Assembly (NCBI RefSeq): GCF_002970975.1
Contig: NZ_PNFA01000012.1
Coordinates: 1 to 64,000, forward strand
Direction of reading: 5' to 3'
From: Microbacterium halophytorum
GTDB taxonomy: Bacteria > Actinomycetota > Actinomycetes > Actinomycetales > Microbacteriaceae
Length of the DNA: 64,000 nucleotides
Below, piece by piece: positions 53,633 through 58,759 of the stretch. The stretch's first letter is position 1; each line of letters opens with the position of its first letter. The notes beneath the pieces are model-generated. The model did no database searches and had not been told where the DNA came from. It worked only from the letters and a program-made list of their open reading frames with translations. Both the position numbers and the translations under genes were made by a program.

Positions 53633-54271
53633 TCACTCGGCGACGGCGGCGGACGCCCGCAGCCGGATGACGGCGTCCGCGCCCGCAACGTCCTCGTCGT
53701 CGTGCGTGACCCACCCGATCGCCCTTCCGCGGGACGCCTCCTCCGCGAGGATTCCCCTGATCGTGCCCCTGCTCTCGGAGTCGAGGCCAGCGCTCGGTTC
53801 GTCGAGGAGCAGGACTCCCCCCGTGCGCGCCGTGCGCGCGAGCGCCTGGGCGATCAGGGCGCGCTGCCGCTGGCCTCCGGAGACCTCGTGGATGGATCTC
53901 CTGGCGAGGTCGGCCACGCCCACGCGCTCCATCGCCTCTGCGACCGCCCGGCGACGCTCCGATCGCGAACTGCCGGCGGCGTCGCGGCCCCACGTGCCCA
54001 GGTCGACGACATCGCGGACCGAGAGCGGCAGCGTGTCCAGGATGGCGGTGCGCTGCACGACGAACGCGACGGTCGCGAACCGCTCGACGACGCCGAGGCG
54101 GGGAACGGCCGTGCCCGCCATCAGCTCGATCAGCGTCGACTTCCCGCTGCCGTTCGGCCCCACGATCGCCGTGATCGCGCCCGCCTCGAGCTCGACGTCG
54201 ATGTCGTGGAGCACGTCGACGTCGTCGTAGGCGAAGCAGAGTCTCCTCGTTCGGAGCAGGATGTCGGGCAT
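53633..54271 (-). CDS. aztA: Zinc/manganese-type ABC transporter ATP-binding protein (AztA-like)
   Basis: A 212-aa ABC ATPase. Walker A is GPNGSGKST (residues ~40-48), Q-loop FVVQRTAILDTLP, ABC signature VSGGQRQRALIAQALA, Walker B VLLLDEPSAGLD and H-loop WVTHDD. It is divergent from the permease gene by 51 nt, so both share one control region that carries a Zur-like site. It energises AztB. The family (cation ABC importers) is clear; zinc is inferred from the adjacent AztC/AztD proteins. Confidence 0.88.
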   Translation of the reverse strand: MPDILLRTRRLCFAYDDVDVLHDIDVELEAGAITAIVGPNGSGKSTLIELMAGTAVPRLGVVERFATVAFVVQRTAILDTLPLSVRDVVDLGTWGRDAAGSSRSERRRAVAEAMERVGVADLARRSIHEVSGGQRQRALIAQALARTARTGGVLLLDEPSAGLDSESRGTIRGILAEEASRGRAIGWVTHDDEDVAGADAVIRLRASAAVAE

Positions 54272-54285
54272 TCCTCGATCCTAAT

Positions 54286-54313
54286 CGATAATGATTCTGA
54301 ATTGCGTTACGCT
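54286..54313. promoter_or_regulatory. Zur/Fur-like box and -10 in the aztA-aztB intergene
   Basis: CGATAATGATTCTGA (54286-54300) resembles the ATAATGATT-type core bound by Zur/Fur proteins, though its symmetry is imperfect. TACGCT (54308-54313) could be the aztB -10, 9 nt before the ATG. The AT-rich patch stands out from its surroundings. Confidence 0.5.
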
Positions 54314-54322
54314 TGCCGGCAT

Positions 54323-55207
54323 ATGCTCGACCTTCCCTTCTCCTCCGAGTTCATGCTGCGCGCCCTCGTCGGCGGTTCCCTCGTGGCGATCATCTGCGCG
54401 ATCGTCGGCACCTGGGTCGTCGTGCGCGGCATGGCGTTCCTCGGCGAGGCCATCGGCCACGGCATGCTGCCCGGCGTCGCGATCGCGACGCTCGTCGGCG
54501 CTCCCCCGCTCTGGGGCGCGGCGATCAGCGGGGCGGCGATGAGCGGCGCGATCGGCCTCCTGCAGCGCCGAGGCAGGCTCTCGTGGGACACGAGCATCGG
54601 GCTGCTGTTCGTCGGCATGCTCTCTCTGGGCGTCATCATCGTCTCTCACTCGCGCAGCTTCGCGACCGATGCGACGAACATGCTCTTCGGCGACATCCTC
54701 GCGATCGGGTGGGGAGATATCGCGACGCTGTCCGTCGCCCTCGTCGTCGTCGCCTCGATCGCCGTCGCCTTCCACCGCTCGTTCATCGCGGCCGCCTTCG
54801 ACCGGCGCGTCGCCCACACCCTCGGGATGCGGCCACGGCTCGCGCACACGCTGCTCACCGCCCTCGTCACGATCGCCGTGATCGCGTCGTACCAGAGCGT
54901 GGGTTCGCTCCTCGTCGTCGGCATGCTGCTCGCCCCGGCGGTCGCGGCCGGCCGCTGGGCGCGCTCCCTCCCCTCGACGATGGCGCTGGCCGCGGTGTTC
55001 GGCATCGCCGCCGTCGCGACGGGCCTGACCGTCTCGTGGTACGCCGCAACGGCGGCGGGCCCCACGATCGCATGCACGGCGATCGTGTTCGCCGGCCTGT
55101 CCGCGCTGACGGCGGGGGCATGGCACCGATCCCGCACCGCCCGCGCGGGGCACCTCGGCGCGGAATCCGCGCCCGCGCACCGAACCGCAGAACCCGCGGC
55201 CGCCTGA
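54323..55207 (+). CDS. aztB: Zinc ABC transporter permease (AztB-like)
   Basis: A 294-aa ABC-3-type permease with 8-9 helices. It starts LDLPFSSEFMLRALVGGSLVAIICAIVGTWVVVRGMAFLGEAIGHGMLPGVAIA, the usual TroC/ZnuB opening. NMLFGDILAIGWGDI and GSLLVVGMLLAPAVAAGRWA are family blocks. Its C-terminal tail is hydrophilic (ESAPAHRTAEP). It is the first gene of a four-gene plus-strand operon (permease, AztD, AztC, second AztD-like). Confidence 0.9.
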   Translation: MLDLPFSSEFMLRALVGGSLVAIICAIVGTWVVVRGMAFLGEAIGHGMLPGVAIATLVGAPPLWGAAISGAAMSGAIGLLQRRGRLSWDTSIGLLFVGMLSLGVIIVSHSRSFATDATNMLFGDILAIGWGDIATLSVALVVVASIAVAFHRSFIAAAFDRRVAHTLGMRPRLAHTLLTALVTIAVIASYQSVGSLLVVGMLLAPAVAAGRWARSLPSTMALAAVFGIAAVATGLTVSWYAATAAGPTIACTAIVFAGLSALTAGAWHRSRTARAGHLGAESAPAHRTAEPAAA

Positions 55208-55233
55208 GCCGCACACCCACACAGAAAGCAGCA

Positions 55234-56451
55234 ATGCCACGCAGCATCATGTCCGCGGCGCCCCTCGCCGCGCTCACCCTCACCGCCCTGCTCGCCGGTT
55301 GCTCGGCCGAACCGGCCGCGCCTGCCGACGGCGCCCCGCCCGAAGACTCCGCTCCGGCCGGCCACGGCGACGTGTCGGGGGCCGCACAGGTCGCCGAGCC
55401 GCAGTCACAGCTCGTCTCGGTCGACGCGGGCGGGAACGTCGGACTGCTCGACCTGCTCACGGACGAGACCCAGGAGCTCGGCACGGTCGGCCCGCCCGAG
55501 GCGATCGCATCAGACGGCCGCTACGCGTTCGTCACGACAGCGGACGGCGTCGACATCATCGACGGCGGGCGCTGGAGCTGGGACCACGGCGACCACTTCC
55601 ACTACTACAGGGCGGAGGCGGCACTGCCCGGGTCGGTCCAGGGTGCCGGACCGGTCACGGTCACGGGTGCGCCGCTGGCGACCGCGGGCGGCACCGGCCT
55701 GTTCTTCTCCGGATCCGGCGAAGCGGTCCTGCTCGACAACGAGGCGCTCGCGGACGGCGAGGTCTCGGAGCGCTTCCGCATCGACACCGGCGCAGGCGAG
55801 GGCGTCGCCGCGCCGTTCGACACGGGCGCCATCGTCGCCACGCCCGACGGCGCCGCGGTGCGCGACGCGTCGGGCGCCGAGATCGAACCGATCAACTGCG
55901 CCGAGCCGTCCGGTGCCGTCACGACGCGCGTCGGAACCGTGGTCGGATGCGCCGACGGGGCGATCCTCGTGACGGGTCGCATCGACGACCCCCGCGTGGA
56001 GGCGATCCCGTACCCGGAGGACGCGGAGGCACGCGCAGCGGGCTTCGCCGGCCGCAAGAACCGGCCGACGGTCGCGGGCCTCGCGGGCGCATCGGGCTTC
56101 TGGCTGCTCGACACCCGAGATCGCTCATGGTCGCACGCGGACACCGAGGCCGAGCTGGTCGACGTGGTCGCGGCGGACGACGACGCGGGCCGCGTCGTCG
56201 CCCTCGGCGCCGATGGGCGGGTCCTCGTCTTCGACGAGCAGGGCGCCCTGCTCGGGTCGAGCGACCCCCTCGTCGCGGAGAGCCTCGCCGCCGGCGACGA
56301 GGTCGACCTCGTCGTCGATACGCAGCGGGCCTACCTCTCCGACCCGGCCAACGGAACGGTCTACGAGATCGACTACGCCGACGGCGCGCGCGTCGCGCGC
56401 GAGCTGACGACCCCGACCTCCCCGTTCGTCGCGACGGAGCTCGGCCGATGA
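55234..56451 (+). CDS. AztD-like metallochaperone lipoprotein, divergent copy
   Basis: A 405-aa exported protein. A lipobox LLAGC (Cys near residue 23) precedes a beta-propeller-like body with repeated VxVxDxG/VLLDN units. It resembles AztD, the periplasmic zinc chaperone that loads AztC. Around residues 116-125 it has WDHGDHFHYY, a His/Asp cluster not found in the downstream paralogue. The His residues that the paralogue has at 166-169 and 199-202 read GAGEGVA and RDASGAE here. A GCADGAI loop is shared. The stop overlaps aztC (ATGA). It probably binds zinc at a different site or handles another step. Confidence 0.78.
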   Translation: MPRSIMSAAPLAALTLTALLAGCSAEPAAPADGAPPEDSAPAGHGDVSGAAQVAEPQSQLVSVDAGGNVGLLDLLTDETQELGTVGPPEAIASDGRYAFVTTADGVDIIDGGRWSWDHGDHFHYYRAEAALPGSVQGAGPVTVTGAPLATAGGTGLFFSGSGEAVLLDNEALADGEVSERFRIDTGAGEGVAAPFDTGAIVATPDGAAVRDASGAEIEPINCAEPSGAVTTRVGTVVGCADGAILVTGRIDDPRVEAIPYPEDAEARAAGFAGRKNRPTVAGLAGASGFWLLDTRDRSWSHADTEAELVDVVAADDDAGRVVALGADGRVLVFDEQGALLGSSDPLVAESLAAGDEVDLVVDTQRAYLSDPANGTVYEIDYADGARVARELTTPTSPFVATELGR

Positions 56452-57362
56452 GCCGCGCGATCCGGAGTCTCTCCCTCGCCGCCGCGCTGGTCGCCGCGGG
56501 CGCCGCCTCGGGCTGTGCCCCGGCCGGAGACCGCGGCCCGACCATCACGGTCACGACGAACATCCTGGGCGACGTCGCCGCGCAGCTCGCCGGAGACGAG
56601 GCCGAGGTGACGGTGCTGATGAAGCCGAACGCCGACCCGCACTCGTTCGAGATCTCGGCCCAGGAGGCCGCCCGCCTGGCCGACTCCGACCTGCTCGTCT
56701 CGAACGGCCTGGGGCTGGAGGAGAACGTCGAGCAGCATCTCGAGACCGCCGCGGGCTCCGGCGCCCCCCGCTTCGTGGCGGGCGAGCACATCACGCCGCT
56801 GGCCTTCTCCGCCGACGGCGCCACCGGCGATGATCCGCACTTCTGGACCGATCCCGAGCGGATGGCGAGCGTCGTCAGCGCCCTCGGCGACACGCTCGCC
56901 GAGCTTCCCGGCGTCGACGCCGCCGCGATCGACGGCAACGTCGATGCCTACCTCGACGACCTGGAGGCGCTGGACGACGAGATGACGGCCGCGTTCGAGG
57001 GGATCCCCGAGTCGAACAGGGCGCTCGTCACGAACCACCACGTCTTCGGATACCTCGCGGACCGGTACGGGTTCGAGACGGTCGGTGCTGTGATCCCGAG
57101 CGGCACCACCCTCGCCTCTCCGTCCGCCGCCGACCTCGATTCGCTCGCATCGGCGATCGAGTCCACCGGCGTGCCCGCAATCTTCGCGGAGTCGTCGCAG
57201 CCCGATCGCCTCGTGCAGGTGCTGGCGGACGAGGCCGGCGTCGACGTCGACGTCGTCGAGCTGTTCTCCGAGTCGCTCACGGGGCCCGAGGGCCCCGCAC
57301 CGACCTACCTCGACATGATGCGGGTCAACTCCGACCGCATCGCCCAGGGCCTCAACAGGTGA
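56448..57362 (+). CDS. aztC: Zinc-binding lipoprotein of ABC importer (AztC-like)
   Basis: A 304-aa cluster A-I metal-binding protein. The lipobox ASGC gives Cys near residue 21. Mature sequence begins TITVTTNILGDVAAQLAGDEAEVTVLMKPNADPHSFEISAQEA. The three His ligands appear in NADPHSFE, DDPHFW and TNHHVFGYLADRYG; a C-terminal Asp/Glu completes the site. The His-rich loop of ZnuA is absent, as in AztC. It overlaps the first aztD-like gene and is followed 23 nt later by the second. Confidence 0.9.
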   Translation: MSRAIRSLSLAAALVAAGAASGCAPAGDRGPTITVTTNILGDVAAQLAGDEAEVTVLMKPNADPHSFEISAQEAARLADSDLLVSNGLGLEENVEQHLETAAGSGAPRFVAGEHITPLAFSADGATGDDPHFWTDPERMASVVSALGDTLAELPGVDAAAIDGNVDAYLDDLEALDDEMTAAFEGIPESNRALVTNHHVFGYLADRYGFETVGAVIPSGTTLASPSAADLDSLASAIESTGVPAIFAESSQPDRLVQVLADEAGVDVDVVELFSESLTGPEGPAPTYLDMMRVNSDRIAQGLNR

Positions 57363-57385
57363 GGCCGAACATGAAAGGAAACCCC

Positions 57386-58603
57386 ATGACGACGACCCCA
57401 CGCTGGCGCGGAGGTGCGGCGCTCGGATCGCTCGCCGCCGTCGCAGTGCTCGCCGCCGGATGCGCATCCGGCTCCTCGGCCGACGAGGCCGACACGACCG
57501 AGGGCGCCAGCACGAGCGCCGAGGCGCCCGCGGTCGGCGAGCGCCTCGCGGTCTCGCTCGACGGCAAGGTGCTCGTACTCGACGCCGAAACGCTCGAGCC
57601 GATCGACGAGTTCGCGAGCGACGAGTTCACGCGCCTGAACCCCGCGGGAGACGGGCGCAACGTCTTCGTGACGACGGCCGAGGGCTTCCAGGTGCTCGAC
57701 ACGGCCGCGCCCGAGCTCACGGAGACGGTGTTCGAGGCCCCGGCGGCCGGCCACGTCGTCCGCCACGCCGGCACCACCGTCCTGTTCGCCGACGGCACGG
57801 GCGAGACGACGTTCTTCGACACCGACGCGCTGATCGACTCCGACGGCGCGCTCCCCGAGACGACCACCTACACGGCCGAGCACGCACACCACGGCGTATC
57901 GATCGTGCTGAAGGACGGCACGCTCCTGACGACGGTCGGCGACGACACCGCCCGATCAGGGGCCGTGGCGCTCGAGCCCCACGACGGCCACTTCGACGAG
58001 CTGACGTCGAGCGACGAGTGCCCCGAGATCCACGGCGAGGGCACGGCGGCGGGCGAGGCCGTGATCTTCGGCTGCCAGGACGGCGCCCTCCTCTACGCGG
58101 ACGGCGAGTTCACGAAGTTCGACGCACCGGACGAGCACGGCCGCATGGGCAACGCGTACGTGTCGGAGACGAGCCCGATCGTGGTCGGCGACTACAACAA
58201 CGACCCGGATGCCGAGGGCTACCTGCTGAACGACGTCGCGCTGATCGACACGGCGGCCGGCGAGTACCGCACGCAGAACCTCGGCGATGTGGAGTACACG
58301 TGGCGCGGCGCCGTGCGCGGCCCGGATGACGCCGCGTACATCCTCGGCACCGACGGCGCGATCCACGTGCTCGACCCCGAGACGGGCGAGTTCACGGCCG
58401 AGCACCCCGTGATCGACGCCTGGGAGGGCCCGGCCGACTGGCAGGACGAGCATCCGGCGCTGACGACGGACGGCGAGACGGCCTACGTCGCCGACGTCGC
58501 GAACAACCGCGTCGTCTCCGTCGACCTGGCCACGGGCGAGGTCCTCACGGAGGGCCCTGAGCTCCCCGGCGCACCCGGCGAGATGGCGCTGAACCTGGGC
58601 TGA
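57386..58603 (+). CDS. aztD: AztD-like zinc metallochaperone
   Basis: A 405-aa lipoprotein (lipobox LAAGC, Cys near 26), the same length as the divergent copy at 55234. Beta-propeller-like repeats (VLVLDAETLEPIDEF, VLDPETGEFTAEHP) fill the body. Candidate metal ligands cluster at HAHHG (166-170), PHDGH (198-202), Cys212 and His216, and GCQDGALL is shared with the copy. These His sites fit AztD better than the copy. AAGGAA 7 nt before the ATG at 57386 sets the start; ATG 57371 and GTG 57359 are worse. It is the last gene of the operon and is followed by a terminator. Confidence 0.82.
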   Translation: MTTTPRWRGGAALGSLAAVAVLAAGCASGSSADEADTTEGASTSAEAPAVGERLAVSLDGKVLVLDAETLEPIDEFASDEFTRLNPAGDGRNVFVTTAEGFQVLDTAAPELTETVFEAPAAGHVVRHAGTTVLFADGTGETTFFDTDALIDSDGALPETTTYTAEHAHHGVSIVLKDGTLLTTVGDDTARSGAVALEPHDGHFDELTSSDECPEIHGEGTAAGEAVIFGCQDGALLYADGEFTKFDAPDEHGRMGNAYVSETSPIVVGDYNNDPDAEGYLLNDVALIDTAAGEYRTQNLGDVEYTWRGAVRGPDDAAYILGTDGAIHVLDPETGEFTAEHPVIDAWEGPADWQDEHPALTTDGETAYVADVANNRVVSVDLATGEVLTEGPELPGAPGEMALNLG

Positions 58604-58616
58604 GCCCCGCGCGAAT

Positions 58617-58668
58617 CGGCGCCCGGCGCGGGCGGAGTGCCCCCACTCCGTGCTCGCGCCGGGCGCCG
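58617..58668 (+). terminator. Strong terminator after the azt operon
   Basis: A 14-bp outer stem (58617-58630 with 58655-58668) and a 7-bp inner stem (58633-58639 with 58644-58650). Confidence 0.8.
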
Positions 58669-58718
58669 GAGCCGTGTGACGTCCCTCCCGAGGTGCCCAC
58701 CGGCCGCATCAAGCATAC

Positions 58719-58737
58719 CAAGGTAAGCCTTACCTAA
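58719..58737. promoter_or_regulatory. Orphan IdeR/DtxR iron box
   Basis: The 19-bp sequence CAAGGTAAGCCTTACCTAA contains the perfect palindrome AGGTAAG-C-CTTACCT (58721-58735) and matches the IdeR/DtxR consensus TTAGGTTAGSCTAACCTAA closely. It lies between the terminator of the azt operon and the 3' end of dcd. No gene starts next to it. Confidence 0.75.
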
Positions 58738-58759
58738 TGCAAGCCCCTCGGGGCGATGA

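Follow-up and report, generated by a model that had tools for sequence, protein, structure and literature searches.

The window analysed here, a 64,000-nucleotide stretch of Microbacterium halophytorum DNA (contig NZ_PNFA01000012.1 of assembly GCF_002970975.1, positions 1 to 64,000 of the forward strand), contains an azt locus encoding two relatives of the zinc chaperone AztD. It is close to certain that the two zinc sites known from AztD are split in a complementary manner between these proteins, AztD1 carrying only site 2 and AztD2 only site 1. To judge from its genes and a candidate operator, the locus is probably a Zur-controlled zinc importer of the AztABCD type. AztD1 is an AztD relative that fails the family cut-off for AztD, and the split pair is a previously unreported form of AztABCD: the literature covered, in part as excerpts, contained no mention of AztDs that are paired or split, and a term search of PMC6689063 gave no hit for 'paralog' or 'two copies'.

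AztD of Paracoccus denitrificans (Pd; 6ck1) provides the reference for both sites. Site 1 lies in the pore (Pd His124, His167 and His218), site 2 lies on a surface hairpin (His99, His102 and Asp104, together with the C-terminal His408), and Cys214 and Cys231 form a conserved disulfide (PMC6689063). Experiments with mutants indicated that zinc is handed over to AztC by site 2 only; the purpose of site 1 was posed as a question by the same authors, who proposed storage or dissociative transfer (PMC6689063). In Pd AztC, a His-rich D-loop with three His residues is essential for zinc transfer.

Alignment to solved AztD showed that AztD1 of the window keeps the hairpin triad but none of the three His residues of site 1, whereas AztD2 keeps the site-1 triad and its hairpin has been excised, leaving neither the hairpin triad nor a C-terminal His. 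A first-pass annotation of this DNA had proposed that the candidate metal residues are swapped between the two proteins, and the swap corresponds to crystallographic site 2 in AztD1 and site 1 in AztD2. The motifs that it listed are all present, namely WDHGDHFHYY near residue 120 of AztD1 (W116-DHGDHFHYY-125) and HAHHG (166-170), PHDGH (198-202), Cys212 and His216 in AztD2. Cys212 and PHDGH were rejected as likely metal ligands. In the alignment, Cys212 falls on Pd Cys214, one half of the disulfide, and is an unlikely ligand because the disulfide cysteines are kept in both proteins, in 98/98 AztD1 and 98/98 AztD2 rows of the alignments (the window, 17 relatives and 80 further loci, with some genomes represented twice), and the PHDGH motif is not conserved. 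The alignment makes His123, His169 and His216 the likely ligands of AztD2.

Structure prediction and alignment with AztD, a check named beforehand, agreed with complementary rather than identical zinc ligands. The AztD1 model (predicted local distance difference test score, pLDDT, 92.5) has predicted hairpin strands at residues 113-117 and 122-127, and the AztD2 model (pLDDT 89.9) is without them. Among solved folds, the three AztD entries come closest to the AztD1 model (Z 32.4-32.6, the next fold scoring 22.2), and the AztD2 model matches AztD entries at Z 38.1-39.2 (next fold 25.6); the next-nearest fold is cd1 nitrite reductase in both cases. The propeller-like body that had been ascribed to both proteins is therefore predicted to be the eight-bladed propeller of the AztD type, with best Z scores of 32.6 for AztD1 and 39.2 for AztD2.

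The division of the sites is conserved. Named genomes were scanned with the AztD1 alignment and the best 80 of 300 loci were kept (Microbacterium 41, Nocardioides 6, Rhodococcus 5, Rathayibacter 4, Leucobacter 4 and eleven further genera, with three loci lacking a genus assignment). A search for the gene order in related genomes, also suggested in advance, found aztA / aztB-aztD1-aztC-aztD2 in 77/80 loci and in one more once AztC had been located by tblastn, the remaining two being interrupted by contig ends. In the 98-row alignments, the site-2 triad of AztD1 is present in every row, with none of the three site-1 His residues in 96 rows and one of the three in two rows, and AztD2 has the site-1 triad in 98/98 rows and a gapped hairpin in 98/98. 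The split is not due to chance, because the site residues are invariant in 98 + 98 rows and the arrangement recurs in 113 distinct operons.

These 113 AztC operons, each with a site-2-only AztD1 and a site-1-only AztD2, comprise 111 tabulated operons together with L249, which has one extra AztD2, and L171, for which AztC was identified separately. Loci were counted as distinct after a 97% cut (198 of 222 locus entries), and a site was scored as lost when no more than one of the three residues remained. Six loci stand outside the 113: L285 has AztD1 and a partly matched AztC with no AztD2 found, L284 stops at a contig edge, L228 and L229 have AztD1 in the same open frame as AztB (read by eye), and in L280 and L281 AztD1 was matched in two pieces. 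Only AztD2 and AztC are visible in four loci with small flanks, and L236, L237, L206 and L076 (genome G039, split AztD) lie outside the distinct-locus table. The extra gene of L249 (genome G870), of the AztD2 type and without the site-2 hairpin, lies about 7 kb from the azt operon.

Two AztDs per azt locus are the rule in this group. The first-pass annotation had taken known azt loci to carry one AztD, but two are not exceptional here: among 297 sampled genomes of the order, AztC was found in 27 (at least 320 bits) and AztD1 in 28 (at least 240 bits), and all 27 AztC-bearing genomes also carry AztD1. The next-best genomes scored 268 bits for AztC and 142 bits for AztD1, and the lone genome with AztD1 and without AztC (G293) holds an orphan AztD1-AztD2 pair. 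The arrangement extends to plasmids, since two annotated Streptomyces plasmids list aztA, aztB, a hypothetical protein that corresponds to AztD1, aztC and aztD. The AztD1 matches among plasmid records numbered 18, all from Streptomyces (14 annotated 'hypothetical protein', four without a listed gene).

The simplest path to this arrangement starts from an operon with one two-site AztD that then gained a second AztD, after which AztD2 would have lost site 2 and AztD1 would have lost site 1; the intermediate states observed fit this path. Two complete AztDs occur in five distinct AztC operons of a single family, f7 (L209-L213), and in L248 (genome G842) a complete AztD1 accompanies an AztD2 that has lost site 2, its hairpin being reduced to a stump without ligands. 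Where a single AztD has no AztC in view, both sites are kept in 60/62 loci, and these complete proteins are of the AztD2 type in 57 cases (15 of them with only 1.5 kb flanks) and of the AztD1 type in three. AztC was sought on five plasmids with single AztDs and gave one match, at 208 bits, below the cut-off of 350; the contrast with proteobacterial single-AztD operons rests on published cases. A complete two-site AztD, annotated as a hypothetical protein, also lies on a Haloterrigena salifodinae plasmid (L202), with no azt genes in the fetched stretch. Outside the class of M. halophytorum, G455, G476 and G571 have an AztC-like gene next to a lone AztD that carries the residues of site 1 and site 2, and in G455 this AztD lies between aztB and aztC, i.e. 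in the place of AztD1.

In a tree of AztD1 calculated with the site columns left out, the complete AztD1s are basal and there is one loss of site 1 (clade support 99/97), and AztD2 nests among complete single AztDs in a quick tree of 187 rows. The loss of the AztD2 hairpin takes three changes in a careful tree of 58 rows and four in the quick tree, and its single origin was recovered in 0/200 bootstrap trees. The remnants of the hairpin vary in length across lineages (GTWTEDGSS, GTWTDSAGSQ, GAWTYGGKH, GTWTEGSEYY or full excision).

On balance, subfunctionalisation is the reading that we favour, with some reserve. AztD1 would be a dedicated zinc donor to AztC at the membrane via hairpin site 2, and AztD2 would capture and hold zinc in the wall space via pore site 1 and raise the supply from which AztD1 gets charged. 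Both the loading of this AztC by AztD1 and the support of AztD1 by AztD2 are inferred; because only site 2 transfers in the Paracoccus mutants, AztD1 should load AztC and AztD2 should bind zinc without loading it. A division of labour had been suggested in the first-pass annotation, either between acquisition from the wall and delivery to AztC or between two metals. The complementary site halves and the coupling of the losses within one operon fit such a division, whereas two different metals found no support in the data.

Several observations weigh against this reading. The nearest analogue of this pair in print is a Paracoccus experiment in which a site-1 mutant, serving as relay, did not pass zinc bound at site 1 of a site-2 mutant on to AztC (PMC6689063). 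Six AztD1-AztD2 pairs in the genus of the window have no aztABC in the fetched stretch (L065-L068, L070 and L216), so that the pair can serve something besides AztC. In L275 and L276, each a lone AztD relative with no AztC close by, site 2 is present and site 1 absent. Although the trees require three or four changes, a single clade for the AztD2 hairpin loss was not rejected by the approximately unbiased test (p-AU 0.163) and the starred branches force only one change; independent coupled losses may therefore be few, and repeated loss of this hairpin is a possible reading only. A His was found in the last six residues of 0/98 AztD1 rows, from which AztD1 is without a C-terminal His ligand, and that His44 could complete site 2 in its place is a guess. 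Finally, the loop that is rich in His in Pd AztC is poor in it here: among the 126 scored of 129 AztCs, the 17 residues before the ligand motif hold no His in 91, one in 34 and two in one.

As regards two of these points, the AztD1 His44 is at least 90% conserved in 62 rows, and the HGxxxG motif near the N-terminus of AztD1 is matched in 92/98 rows, with three of the six misses retaining His-Gly. L275 and L276 (G766, and G789 contig 16) carry HGGHAD or HGDHAD hairpins in fetched stretches that showed no azt genes, and are perhaps a separate, independent site-2-only branch.

Of 129 distinct AztCs, 119 retain the motifs that surround the three His ligands of AztC, and the AztC of the window has one His in the 17 residues preceding the ligand motif, compared with four in Pd AztC. 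The His-poor loop also occurs in the AztCs of the five f7 operons, in which both AztDs are complete, and of L248. Loss of the D-loop owing to the site split is thus ruled out, since the unsplit L209-L213 and L248 also lack a His-rich loop, and the contact between AztC and AztD must differ in this branch, split or not.

Two further possibilities concern whether zinc passes between the two proteins at all. Direct passage, in which the HGDHFHYY hairpin of AztD1 would enter the AztD2 pore, take zinc and hand it to AztC, seems doubtful. A crystal of AztD from Citrobacter koseri (CkAztD) contains the site-2 hairpin of one chain inside the pore of its neighbour, forming a hybrid bridged-zinc site, although this was judged most likely a crystal artefact by its authors (PMC6689063). 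Together with the six persisting pairs without aztABC in view, the crystal speaks for such passage, but the failure of the published site-1-only to site-2-only relay in Paracoccus disfavours it. Were it true, complementary site loss would enforce a direction, and some genomes would have put the pair to further use next to an M4 metalloprotease. Exchange may alternatively be absent, AztD1 charging AztC and AztD2 being an independent store or serving other extracytoplasmic zinc proteins, and the two being retained only because zinc starvation requires both; this too is possible but unlikely. The storage or dissociative transfer suggested for site 1 (PMC6689063), the negative relay experiment and the orphan pairs, five of which were examined and share a divergent-neighbour cluster (in L065 an M4 metallopeptidase), are all in keeping with it. 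However, AztD1 and AztD2 stay together in the orphan pairs, as if the two need each other, and an AztD1 lacking site 1 beside a complete AztD2 had zero cases in the distinct AztC operons counted. The divergent neighbour falls into one blast cluster in 5/5 of these loci (L065-L068 and L070), and in L065 the metallopeptidase is followed by an emfourin-type inhibitor.

It is very improbable that each of the two proteins binds a metal of its own and supplies it separately to AztC or other clients. The His-His-His site 2 of AztD1 differs from the His-His-Asp of Paracoccus, but His-His-His already occurs in the complete single actinobacterial AztDs examined and is thus not special to AztD1; furthermore, the operon is served by a single solute-binding protein (SBP), which belongs to the AztC zinc family, and its candidate operator is similar to Zur sites. 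Least probable is that AztD2 is the sole working chaperone and AztD1 a scaffold, antagonist or decaying copy, as its family score (65 bits against a cut-off of 400) and its annotation as 'hypothetical protein' on two Streptomyces plasmids might suggest, because an invariant site-2 His set (98/98) and the co-occurrence of AztD1 with AztC (27/27) bear no mark of decay and AztD2 is without the only site known to transfer.

The split pair is part of the locus set out in Table 1. The plus-strand order of permease, AztD-like protein, AztC and second AztD-like protein is as originally claimed (54323-58603), as are the 405-residue lengths and lipoprotein signals of both AztD-like proteins, read from the sequence as LLAGC with Cys23 in AztD1 and LAAGC with Cys26 in AztD2. 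The ATPase gene aztA had been overlooked; it diverges from aztB-aztD1-aztC-aztD2 across a gap of 51 bp. The azt operons in the group of M. halophytorum usually have five genes and not four. The start of aztC overlaps the stop of aztD1. In the profile comparison with NCBIfam cut-offs, AztB, AztC and AztD2 lie above, AztA slightly below and AztD1 far below.

Table 1. Genes, candidate operator and site residues of the azt locus (window positions)
Feature	Position	Strand	Basis or equivalent
aztA, ATPase subunit	53633..54271	-	NCBIfam NF040873 AztA, 211 bits vs cut-off 220, best-scoring family
Candidate Zur-like operator, CGATAATGATTCTGA	54286..54300	.	11/15 identity to TGAAAATGATTTTCA
aztB, permease	54323..55207	+	NF040871 AztB, 336 bits vs cut-off 280
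aztD1, AztD-like lipoprotein, site 2 only	55234..56451	+	NF038015 AztD, 65 bits vs cut-off 400
AztD1 His44, conserved near the N-terminus; may be a further site-2 ligand (guess)	55363..55365	+	
AztD1 site-2 hairpin HGDHFH (His118, His121, His123)	55585..55602	+	Pd His99/His102/Asp104 equivalents; pattern HxxHx[DH]; 98/98
AztD1 Cys222 to Cys239, conserved disulfide pair including intervening segment	55897..55950	+	Pd Cys214-Cys231
aztC, zinc solute-binding lipoprotein	56448..57362	+	NF040870 AztC, 367 bits vs cut-off 350
aztD2, AztD lipoprotein, site 1 only	57386..58603	+	NF038015 AztD, 417 bits vs cut-off 400
aztD2, site of missing site-2 hairpin (LDTAA-PEL)	57701..57709	+	Gap in 98/98 AztD2 rows
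AztD2 His123, site 1	57752..57754	+	Pd His124; 98/98
AztD2 His169, site 1, in HHG	57890..57892	+	Pd His167; 98/98
AztD2 His216, site 1, in CxxxHGE	58031..58033	+	Pd His218; 98/98

The Zur consensus TGAAAATGATTTTCA was taken from PMC2823685. The palindrome in the aztA-aztB gap is the sole match of at least 11/15 on both strands of the window, and shuffled-sequence controls gave a mean of 0.5 such matches in 20 shuffles. In related aztA-aztB regions the best match was at least 10 in 77/78 (range 10-14), compared with only 1/80 control stretches inside aztD2, the lengths compared being 137 to 267 bases for the regions (printed rows) and 190 for the controls. Outside the window, at a distance of 13-18 kb downstream from the azt locus, the same contig carries a cluster of a znuA-type SBP gene, an ATPase gene and a znuB-type permease gene, then a Fur-family gene, with a CobW-type gene adjoining (71581-76369, L290). 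Additional Zur-like sites (11/15) accompany it at 73876, 73900 and 75300. Another palindrome, aaggtaagccttacctaa at 58716-58740, which we take to be similar to an IdeR/DtxR iron box, sits where aztD2 and the minus-strand gene that follows it converge, and is upstream of no called gene.

As in AztABCD of P. denitrificans (AztD 6ck1, AztC 5w57), a permease, an ATPase, a cluster A-I SBP and a β-propeller AztD are combined in one zinc locus, the ligand positions of both AztD sites are recognizable, and Zur control there has its counterpart in a Zur-like box here. However, one two-site AztD there contrasts with two single-site AztDs here, the His-rich D-loop of Pd AztC is missing, and site 2 is His-His-His without a C-terminal His instead of His-His-Asp with one. 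CkAztD (6cmk, 6n01) has the same fold (VIA-align Z 32 to AztD1 and 38 to AztD2), and its hairpin-in-pore hybrid zinc site could be imitated by AztD1 and AztD2 as a heterodimer, although in CkAztD a single chain carries both sites. For ZinT-ZnuA, AdcA and PhtD-AdcAII, we know of no site sharing between two sister chaperones. Their accessory proteins are unrelated to AztD, but there too a cluster A-I SBP is supplied by an accessory zinc protein (PMC6689063). In Corynebacterium glutamicum, the ATPase gene cg0043 is divergent from cg0042-cg0041-cg0040, encoding permease, SBP and a secreted protein, as here, and the 29-bp gap holds a Zur site common to both sides; in this comparison, made by description only, a single secreted protein is reported (PMC2823685). 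The present results offer a lead to the function of the gene annotated as a hypothetical protein on two Streptomyces plasmids, which is AztD1. The two zinc sites of AztD have already been separated by nature in many actinobacteria, and because evolution produced both single-site versions the role of site 1 is testable with wild-type proteins. Single-site AztDs, which in Paracoccus were made by mutation, occur here naturally and side by side in 113 distinct operons, together with their intermediates.

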